The notes under the pieces were generated by a model that did not search any database, was not told the DNA's origin, and was given only the letters and a program-made list of their open reading frames with translations. A program made the translations under genes and the position numbers. Positions 6,078-54,223 of a stretch of 64,000 bases of DNA are shown here, piece after piece (the first letter of the stretch is position 1; the number at the start of each line of letters is the position of its first letter). The stretch spans positions 1 through 64,000 of the forward strand of contig CAMBAJ010000003.1 of NCBI GenBank assembly GCA_945864305.1. The letters are read 5' to 3'. This DNA comes from an uncultured Clostridia bacterium (GTDB lineage: Bacteria > Bacillota > Clostridia > Oscillospirales > Oscillospiraceae).

Positions 6078-6360
6078 TAATTGAACATTTTGGCGTAGAT
6101 AAGGACGAGTAACCCTCCGGTCCCCGCGAAGAGAGCCGCCGTTTGGTGCAAGGCGGACGGGTGTGGAGCGTGAAAATCACCTTGGAGCTTCCCTCCGAAA
6201 GACGACGCGAGTAAGAGAGGACGCATGATGCCCGTTACAGCATCGGCCCGTGACAGCGGGTGATGAGCGGTCGTGTCCGCAAGGCCACGGCAACCGAGAG
6301 TGGTACCGCAGAGTGTTTTTCCAAACGCTTTGTCTCTTGATGGAGACAAGGCGTTTTTAT
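6078..6360 (+). ncRNA. T-box leader, probably tRNA-Ile responsive
   Basis: The leader contains the conserved T-box sequence in GAGTGGTACCGCAGAG (about 6298-6313). A terminator stem follows, CGCTTTGTCTC-TTGAT-GGAGACAAGGCG, with TTTTTAT. Upstream is a long structured Stem I with an AGTA box (GGACGAGTAAC) and GGTG. The segment GTGAAAATCACC offers ATC as a likely isoleucine specifier codon, which agrees with ileS downstream. Uncharged tRNA-Ile should stabilise the antiterminator and allow read-through into the zinc-ribbon gene and ileS. The specifier assignment is inferred, not folded. Confidence 0.9.
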
Positions 6361-47738: not shown

Positions 47739-47767
47739 TGAAATCGCGGTCTCACGACGCAAACTGT

Positions 47768-47856
47768 ATGCTCCCTACGCTGGCATGATCCAGATCAGGT
47801 GTAATGGGTCTCGGAATATATCCGACTCTCAGCCCGTCGATCCGGGCTCCCCTGTT
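47768..47856 (-). ncRNA. TPP riboswitch aptamer (THI element)
   Basis: On the minus strand the hallmark segments appear in order: GGGGAGCCC, then GGGCTGAGA, then ACCTGATCTGGATCATGCCAG and CGTAGGGA. It controls tenA-thiZ-thiX-thiY through the terminator downstream. Confidence 0.97.
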
Positions 47857-47865
47857 GTTCTATCT

Positions 47866-52056: not shown

Positions 52057-52809
52057 TCACACACAGGCCAAAAGTTCGGCATGATCCTGCCGCAAATACA
52101 AAATATCAGCAACTGTTGCGATAAACTCCGAATTTGTTGGCTTGGCCATCTGGGGCTTTTTGGTGCATCCAAAGTAATACTGCAAAAAATCAATATTCCC
52201 CCGTTCCCAAGCAACTGCAATTGCTTTTCGCATTGCGCGTTCCACACAGCTGGCGGTCGTACCATAGCACTTTGCGATATCCGGATAGAGGATTTTGGTA
52301 ACTCCGTCCATGACCGCGGGGTCTTTCATAGCCATGATGATGGCTCTTCGGAGATATTGATATCCTTTGAGATGCGCGGGAATGCCGAGCTGGCGCATCA
52401 AATTGGATATCTGCACTTCCAATGCCGCATCATATTCGGCGGTTGAGACCGGCTCTAGGATATTCCTGATATATTCGGACAAGTTTACGACCTGAGATGC
52501 CATTTCGCCGGGAGGACTGCTCCATTCGGGCGATAGGGGCACAATGAAGCGCCCTTTTACCTGTGGAAATGTCAAGGAGTTAAGGCTGACTCCGCTTTTA
52601 TGAATATAAGACAGCAGCGCCATGCTGTTTTCAATCATCGGATTCATGACAAGAAGATTTGGCGTTTTTTTCTGAATCAACTGCACTGCTTTTTCGCCAT
52701 CACCGCTGGCCCCGAGAATCTCAAGACCTTTTCTGAAACGGATGTACCCTGTCAGCGACTCGCAAAAGTCCCGGCTTGTATCTGCGATGACGATTTTTAA
52801 TACACTCAT
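52057..52809 (-). CDS. Spo0A-like response regulator with degenerate receiver domain
   Basis: A 250-residue protein with a clear Spo0A DNA-binding domain (residues about 125-240): LGIPAHLKGYQYLRRAI, ILYPDIAKCYGTTASCVERAM, AWERGNIDFLQYYFGC and KPTNSEFIATVADIL. The receiver is eroded. The phospho-acceptor position reads LLVMNPMIE, with Asn where Spo0A has the Asp of VLDIIMP, and the usual Lys switch segment is absent. In the recognition helix, TTASR of Spo0A is TTASC. It is probably a phosphorylation-independent paralogue. GAAAGGAGACTC precedes the ATG. It lies in a lower-G+C patch, divergent from the tandem-HTH gene. Confidence 0.85.
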   Translation of the reverse strand: MSVLKIVIADTSRDFCESLTGYIRFRKGLEILGASGDGEKAVQLIQKKTPNLLVMNPMIENSMALLSYIHKSGVSLNSLTFPQVKGRFIVPLSPEWSSPPGEMASQVVNLSEYIRNILEPVSTAEYDAALEVQISNLMRQLGIPAHLKGYQYLRRAIIMAMKDPAVMDGVTKILYPDIAKCYGTTASCVERAMRKAIAVAWERGNIDFLQYYFGCTKKPQMAKPTNSEFIATVADILYLRQDHAELLACV

Positions 52810-52831: not shown

Positions 52832-52852
52832 TTGTTAAGTATACTTTAACAA
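52832..52852. promoter_or_regulatory. palindrome in the Spo0A-like/tandem-HTH intergenic region
   Basis: TTGTTAA-GTATACT-TTAACAA, perfect 7-bp arms, about 25 bp upstream of the Spo0A-like start. A second short repeat, CACCAA-TAA-TTTGGTG, lies near 52978-52993. Both are candidate regulator sites in this 256-bp divergent spacer. Confidence 0.45.
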
Positions 52853-53065
52853 AATACGATTTTGCGTGCATTACCTAAAAAAGGACGAATTCAGACAATC
52901 TTTTCAATCTAAATGGTTTTCCATAATATTACAAAAATGTTTTGCGGAATCTGTGGAAGGAGGGGGGAAAATAATTTCACCAATAATTTGGTGGGAGTTC
53001 TGCAAAATTTTTTACGACCCGTCAAACAGCAACGCCGAGAATCTTTAGAAAGGAGTGGCTGCTAA

Positions 53066-54223
53066 TTGCTTTTTAACCGCATCATTGAGGACGCAGACCG
53101 TTGCGGCAACTTACTCTCCAGCAGCAGAACCCGTGCTGAACTGAGCCGGAAAACGATGAGCATTGCGCTGGGCGTTTCGGAAAGTACGATTAAAGCATGG
53201 GAAAATGGCCAAGGCTCTCCAACCCTGTACGGAATTCTCGAATGGTTCCGCACGGTGGGCGAAAGCCCTTTTCGTCCGATGTTGGAGTTTTTCTGGCCGG
53301 ATGTATTCGCCGTGCTTACCGCAAAAAGTGCAGATGATGAGATTCGGGAAGCGTGCAGGTTTTACTTTGCGAATGTGGCTGGCCCCAAAGAGATCCAAAA
53401 GCTCCATTACCTCATATTTGGAAAACATGGTTCAGAGTGGTCAGGGCTATTGGATATGGCCTGTGCGCATACCCACACAAGTCTGAACAGCCGCTACCGA
53501 GTTGCAGAGATCATTCAGGTATCTTACGAGATGAGTGCGGCCAACGGGCTTACGCAGAAGCCCCCTGGAATCGAGGCGGACCGTCCATTACTCCTGTCTG
53601 CGATTGCCGCTGCGAAAGAGACGTCCGTTTCTTCCAATAAGAATGGATATACAATCGGCCAAAGCCATGCGGACACTTCCGCAATGCTGGCAAGAGCCAG
53701 AATGGACTCCGGTGCAACACAGGAGGAATTGGCAAAGGCACTTGGCAAAACATTGCATACCATTCAAAAATGGGAGACGAATTACGACCCATCTTTTTTG
53801 GACGTGTGTACCTGGTTCCGCGTATTGAACATGCCAGCATGGACATATATCCACTGTATGCTGTATCCCACAGAAAGGCTGACCTTTTTGGAGGGAGATG
53901 AGAAGCGCCGTGAGGAAGTGGTCTCCTATCTCTCTTCAACCGGCAGTGCTGAGCTGCGAAAAATATTTTATCTGGTTGCCGGTATGCACGGCTCCAATTG
54001 GTTGGCTGTGCTGGAAATGATGTTTGAGCATGTCTGCTCGCCTCTGGCACAGCGGGTTATCTCCGCACGCTCTGTGCTCATTGGCTATCAGTTAGAGCAG
54101 GAGAATCAGCAGCTTTTGAAAACAGACCATATCATGCCAGATATTGAAAATCTGAATCGCTGTATTGTGTTGGGAACTGAAGCGACAAAAAAGGGTTTGC
54201 CGGCTTATAAGATGACTATTTAA
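53066..54223 (+). CDS. protein with two tandem HTH-plus-helical units
   Basis: A 385-residue protein built from two copies of one module. Unit 1 (about 10-185) has SRTRAELSRKTMSIALGVSE as its HTH and then AGPKEIQKLHYLIFGKHGSEW. Unit 2 (about 195-345) has ARMDSGATQEELAKALGKTL as its HTH and then GSAELRKIFYLVAGMHGSNW. The repeated FGKHGSEW/AGMHGSNW segment suggests internal duplication. Two DNA-binding heads in one chain could bridge adjacent half-sites. The start is a TTG with AAAGGAG nine bases ahead. It lies divergent from the degenerate Spo0A gene in lower-G+C DNA. No named family is recognised beyond XRE-like HTH. Confidence 0.78.
   Translation: MLFNRIIEDADRCGNLLSSSRTRAELSRKTMSIALGVSESTIKAWENGQGSPTLYGILEWFRTVGESPFRPMLEFFWPDVFAVLTAKSADDEIREACRFYFANVAGPKEIQKLHYLIFGKHGSEWSGLLDMACAHTHTSLNSRYRVAEIIQVSYEMSAANGLTQKPPGIEADRPLLLSAIAAAKETSVSSNKNGYTIGQSHADTSAMLARARMDSGATQEELAKALGKTLHTIQKWETNYDPSFLDVCTWFRVLNMPAWTYIHCMLYPTERLTFLEGDEKRREEVVSYLSSTGSAELRKIFYLVAGMHGSNWLAVLEMMFEHVCSPLAQRVISARSVLIGYQLEQENQQLLKTDHIMPDIENLNRCIVLGTEATKKGLPAYKMTI

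Follow-up and report, generated by a model that had tools for sequence, protein, structure and literature searches.

A receiver-defective Spo0A paralogue and its tandem-HTH XRE neighbour in an uncultured Oscillospiraceae bacterium

Organization of the locus

The window analyzed here is the whole stretch of 64,000 nucleotides (contig CAMBAJ010000003.1, positions 1 to 64,000) from an uncultured Clostridia bacterium of the family Oscillospiraceae, the genome of which (G000) measures 2.24 Mb and is 88.6% complete. We found that it carries a gene encoding a Spo0A-like protein, positioned divergently from a gene for an XRE-type regulator. The features of the locus are as follows:

52057..52809 (-), Spo0A-like gene, 250 aa; a receiver-defective Spo0A paralogue with orthologues in genomes G007 and G354
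52102..52410 (-), Spo0A_C DNA-binding domain (Pfam PF08769); fold match to 1lq1 and 1fc3; dN/dS 0.09
52246..52248 (-), codon of Cys188, which replaces the recognition-helix Arg (position of B. subtilis Arg211); TTASC versus TT[PAS]SR
52438..52809 (-), receiver remnant, residues 1-124, delimited by alignments and an AlphaFold2 (AF2) model; dN/dS 0.37
52642..52644 (-), codon of Asn56 at the phospho-acceptor position, from the alignment column; Asn likewise in G007 and G354
52832..52852 (no strand), palindrome-like TTGTTAAGTATACTTTAACAA upstream of the Spo0A-like gene, a candidate only, from the sequence
52871..52881 (no strand), TTACCTAAAAA, candidate operator; the longest invariant block of three aligned divergent intergenic regions
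53066..54223 (+), partner gene; its XRE product of 385 aa comprises two homologous HTH units in tandem (HTH_3 and HTH_31 matches)

The Spo0A-like reading frame starts with ATG, and a ribosome-binding site is found immediately upstream. Elsewhere in the window we noted a T-box leader (6087-6340, +) and a TPP riboswitch (47755-47863, -), the latter ahead of genes for a TenA-like protein and transporters.

Domain structure of the Spo0A-like protein

The initial annotation had described the gene product as a Spo0A homologue with a well-kept C-terminal domain, devoid of the phospho-acceptor Asp and the Lys switch region and with Cys for Arg in the recognition segment; this description proved accurate. 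The Spo0A_C domain is matched at 1e-39 (135 bits against a Pfam cut-off of 25), the Response_reg match of 17 bits lies under the Pfam cut-off of 30.2, and the NCBIfam Spo0A equivalog TIGR02875 scores 190.7 bits, narrowly below its 200-bit cut-off. Aligned with canonical Spo0A proteins from this genome and its relatives, the protein has Asn56 (LLVMNPMI) in the phospho-Asp column and Thr at the second acid-pocket residue, beside the first acid-pocket Asp (IADTS). The stretch with the switch Lys is deleted, and the loss extends beyond this segment, as the distal receiver as a whole is short or unalignable; the elements from β1 to α3 are retained. The recognition segment reads TTASC (TTASCVER), versus TT[PAS]SR(VER) in all canonical Spo0A proteins of the family, and the Glu and Arg neighboring the replaced Arg are kept. 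In an AF2 model built from five sequences (pLDDT 78, pTM 0.49), the C-terminal domain is well modelled and matches the solved Spo0A structures 1lq1 and 1fc3, and the receiver is plausible and receiver-like from β1 to α3, with a short distal end of low confidence.

The canonical spo0A of this genome is located on another contig (G000:C4:11762-12487) and encodes a 258-aa protein in which the phospho-site is Asp, the Lys position reads PKP and the recognition segment is TTPSRVER. In the same-genome alignment that the initial annotation had proposed, Asp, Lys and Arg are intact in the canonical copy and altered in the Spo0A-like protein. That annotation had named the lack of a second spo0A, together with an Asp restored by resequencing, as the outcome that would speak against it; the second copy exists, and Asn recurs in other species. 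We also detected SpoIVA and forespore-type sigma genes in this genome. In none of the ten genomes tested did the sigma matches reach the SigF cut-off; they therefore indicate forespore-type sigma factors and not SigF in particular.

Orthologues and the two-gene module

A search of 60 relatives and about 400 genomes of the family yielded orthologues of the Spo0A-like protein in G007 (same genus, 73% identity) and G354 (other genus, 48%). All three proteins have Asn at the phospho-site and no Lys region, and share a similar C-terminal tail that closes with CV. A fourth genome, G229, encodes a Spo0A relative of 200 aa with the receiver cut to about 75 residues. The recognition segments are TTASC in the window and G007, TTASS in G354 and TTAGS in G229, the Arg being replaced in each of the four (C, C, S, S). 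Sequencing errors can be dismissed, since independent genomes show the changes again: Asn occurs in both G007 and G354, Cys in G007 and Ser in G354. A canonical Spo0A is also encoded by G229, and none was found in the genome search of G354, which is 81% complete.

The most informative feature of the locus, absent from the initial annotation, is the tandem-HTH XRE partner. Its two halves are homologous (26% identical, E 4e-17), which points to a tandem duplication, and single-unit XRE relatives of about 200 aa exist elsewhere. In the window, G007 and G354 alike, the Spo0A-like gene is divergent from an XRE gene of about 385 aa. In G229, where the partner shows 39% identity, the Spo0A relative adjoins it on its upstream side and both genes point the same way, which means that a shared divergent operator is not present in every case. 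In turn, the XRE gene is followed by a convergent ppdK gene in the window and G007, which differ in the opposite flank, and the G229 module is surrounded by unannotated, accessory-looking genes. Within the family sample, these four genomes are the ones with a full-length partner; apart from the window's own copy, sampling of the order and class gave only half-length relatives. Among the more than 1,100 different genomes of these overlapping samples combined, a receiver-defective Spo0A paralogue adjoins the full-length partner in four of four cases, and no partner lacks one. The Spo0A-like gene is one half of a two-gene module with the XRE gene, a module known from four genomes only. A single-sequence model of the XRE partner was useless (mean pLDDT 35).

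Half-length XRE relatives of G141, G427 and G1101 had no Spo0A gene in the stretches listed. The one in G141 (L075, 2308-3564, +) lies near a gene for an SMC-type ATPase-like product, which is perhaps part of a defence system.

Phylogeny and selection

The tree of C-terminal domains (107 columns, 87 rows) unites the four module proteins in a single clade with support of 92/92. This clade falls outside the canonical Spo0A group of its own family and is separated, with support of 97/93, from 16 stand-alone Spo0A_C proteins; with few columns and several long branches, deeper placement in this tree is uncertain. Judging by this topology, the module Spo0A goes back to an old paralogue or to gene transfer and not to a recent duplication.

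Between the window and G007, dN/dS of the Spo0A-like protein equals 0.37 for residues 1-124 (bootstrap 0.23-0.60) and 0.09 for residues 125-250 (bootstrap 0.04-0.17), compared with 0.08 for the XRE partner and 0.23 for canonical Spo0A. By these estimates, the receiver half is relaxed yet constrained, and both halves are under purifying selection. This disfavors a decaying spo0A pseudogene, scarcely credible despite the degraded receiver and the sparse distribution, since the frames are intact in four genomes, the partner is constant, no bootstrap replicate for residues 1-124 reached a dN/dS of 1 or more and the C-terminal tail is common to three species.

The intergenic region

The palindrome that the initial annotation had offered as a possible target, TTGTTAAGTATACTTTAACAA, is indeed present upstream of the Spo0A-like gene. 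It is, however, found only once in the genome when up to 3 mismatches are allowed, and differs at two positions in G007, the closest relative, which leaves it as a local site at best. As a regulon operator it was rejected, with one copy in each of two genomes. Within the same region, the 11-nt invariant block TTACCTAAAAA (column-shuffle P about 0.014) occurs once in the window. Neither 0A boxes in the shared intergenic region or near the gene nor sigma-70-type promoters exceeded chance.

Proposed role and alternative explanations

Loss of the phospho-Asp, the switch Lys and the distal receiver, a constrained DNA-binding fold, a replaced recognition Arg and constant adjacency to the partner characterize this Spo0A-like protein. 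We consider it somewhat better than an even chance that it is a Spo0A-derived transcription regulator that acts independently of phosphorylation and constitutes a two-gene switch together with its tandem-HTH XRE neighbor. Kinases of the Spo0 type would be unable to switch such a protein; how active it is would instead depend on its abundance and on the XRE partner, which might repress from the intergenic region between the two genes or make direct contact. With a shifted DNA specificity, it would presumably read sites unlike canonical 0A boxes. Still, adjacency of the two genes is no proof of interaction, the XRE protein could control something else, and the Arg replacement may weaken DNA binding rather than retarget it.

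The initial annotation had further suggested that the protein might bind 0A-box-like DNA, or titrate or antagonize the true Spo0A. By competing for 0A boxes or by forming inactive mixed complexes, it would then raise the sporulation threshold, a role that seems unlikely to us. The strong similarity of the C-terminal domain, the retained Glu and Arg of the recognition helix and the presence of a canonical Spo0A and spore genes in the same genome speak for an antagonist. Yet none of the four module members has kept the recognition Arg, the intergenic region holds no excess of 0A boxes, and the distal receiver, by which response regulators usually dimerize, is deleted. A role for this Arg fits the case of Paenibacillus, in which a spontaneous R211H change in Spo0A accompanied sporulation loss (cited in PMC9195935); by analogy, the module proteins may use 0A boxes poorly, although a simultaneous DegU change confounds that case. 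What stands of the earlier interpretation is that the paralogue is not phosphorylatable in the usual way, while 0A-box-like binding and antagonism of Spo0A are now less supported.

It is distinctly unlikely that the protein is a sporulation-linked regulator that still serves a portion of the Spo0A regulon, is constitutively active because its receiver switch is gone, and is kept low by the XRE protein until needed. The isolated C-terminal domain of Spo0A can act without phosphate, and the output domain is tightly conserved here; a similar mode of action was proposed for a receiver-less phage Spo0A (PMC10294663). Such a role agrees poorly with the lost recognition Arg and with the selection still acting on the receiver part, which implies that the receiver is not simply dispensable.

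Finally, cargo of a phage or mobile element, akin to the receiver-less phage Spo0A, is a very improbable explanation. Truncated Spo0A is known on phages (PMC10294663), and the G229 module lies among accessory-looking genes; against this, the stand-alone Spo0A_C proteins group apart from the module proteins, no partner was found in viral contigs, and the module is located beside ppdK in the window and G007. A phage or plasmid origin was rejected, as the Spo0A-like matches in the viral contigs, which had no partner, were less than 60% identical and many were full-length Spo0A. A defence system was likewise rejected, with only weak generic HTH matches in PADLOC, and the scan of genome contigs returned one distant Spo0A only.

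Stand-alone Spo0A_C proteins

Proteins of about 110-210 aa that consist of Spo0A_C without a receiver are encoded in many genomes of the genus, often several per genome (loci L082-L092, L095, L096 and L101). Most have T[N/S]W.AVERN instead of TTPSRVERA, and they resemble the phage-borne truncated Spo0A of the literature. On the viral contig IMGVR_UViG_2888595665_000003, a 150-aa receiver-less Spo0A_C protein (L144, 2965-3417, +) is encoded about 0.5 kb from an XRE-type repressor gene.

Loss of the phospho-acceptor in other Spo0A proteins

In a side survey of single representatives of other families of the order, we observed that the sole or main Spo0A may lack the phospho-Asp, with Asn in G038, Glu in G042 and G047, and Ser in G049. 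Asn is also found in G044, a one-contig genome in which Lys is changed to Met, and in G051, where the frame is interrupted upstream. Both Spo0A copies of G039 have Asn; the second (L098, 2651-3400, +) has a full-length receiver and, in addition, Cys at the recognition Arg. It thereby shares the two changes of the window protein in another clade, an apparent convergence. Within the window's own genus, Spo0A of G010 has Glu at this position. The loci of these sole or main Spo0A proteins are L015, L022, L055, L118, L120, L122, L131 and L003. SpoIVA and forespore-type sigma genes were present in all four genomes tested (G038, G044, G049 and G039).

Tentatively, Spo0A output may have been uncoupled from phosphate more than once in the order, through an XRE-paired paralogue at the locus described here and through loss of Asp in the sole or main Spo0A elsewhere, in genomes with spore genes still present. 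If so, Spo0A programmes would be controlled by protein amount or by partner proteins rather than by phosphorylation. Entry into sporulation is generally regarded as gated by Spo0A phosphorylation (PMC3533761), and genomes are called spore-forming on the basis of their spo0A gene (PMC8340488). A conserved paralogue unable to accept phosphate in the usual way, with its own regulator, would show how a master regulator comes to be recruited for another job, and it cautions that the receiver needs inspection when surveys count spo0A genes. The losses of Asp seen across the order also raise the question of whether Spo0A works without phosphorylation in spore-forming Clostridia.

Comparison with known systems

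We found no description of this gene pair or of an Asp-less Spo0A in the literature searched, which included few subscription journals. Within this coverage, pairing of a conserved Spo0A paralogue devoid of Asp with its own tandem-XRE protein is apparently undescribed. A second spo0A homologue in one genome is known from Clostridium thermocellum (Cthe_3087/Clo1313_0637), where a stress role is suspected; the likeness is by description only, and the parts of that report available to us mention neither loss of Asp nor an XRE partner (PMC4890492).

Receivers without the phospho-Asp are a known scattered class (ALR) of up to 4% of receivers, with Asn in 16% of them, according to the portion of the review consulted (PMC4395418). 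As in its members RitR, ChxR and FrzS, the phospho-Asp is replaced in the window protein, by Asn as in RitR and in all three orthologues, although the receiver homology is weak (17 bits). By analogy, activity without His-kinase phosphate would be expected in both. ALRs mostly retain the pocket Lys and the fold, whereas the Lys region is deleted here, and in the same portion we saw no Spo0A-type output discussed as an ALR (PMC4395418).

Phages also carry Spo0A homologues without a receiver (PMC10294663), which have in common with the window protein a Spo0A output without a working receiver. The phage proteins lack the receiver entirely, whereas the module proteins are longer, possess the XRE partner and belong to another clade than the stand-alone Spo0A_C proteins sampled; in the window protein, 124 residues under selection precede the effector domain.

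The closest comparison is Spo0A itself (PDB 1lq1, 1fc3 and 1qmp), which has the same domain order and whose solved C-terminal domain is about 54% identical to that of the Spo0A-like protein over 111 residues. In contrast to Spo0A, the window protein has no phospho-Asp and no switch Lys, a shortened receiver and Cys for the recognition Arg; it is accompanied by a dedicated XRE neighbor and coexists with a canonical Spo0A.
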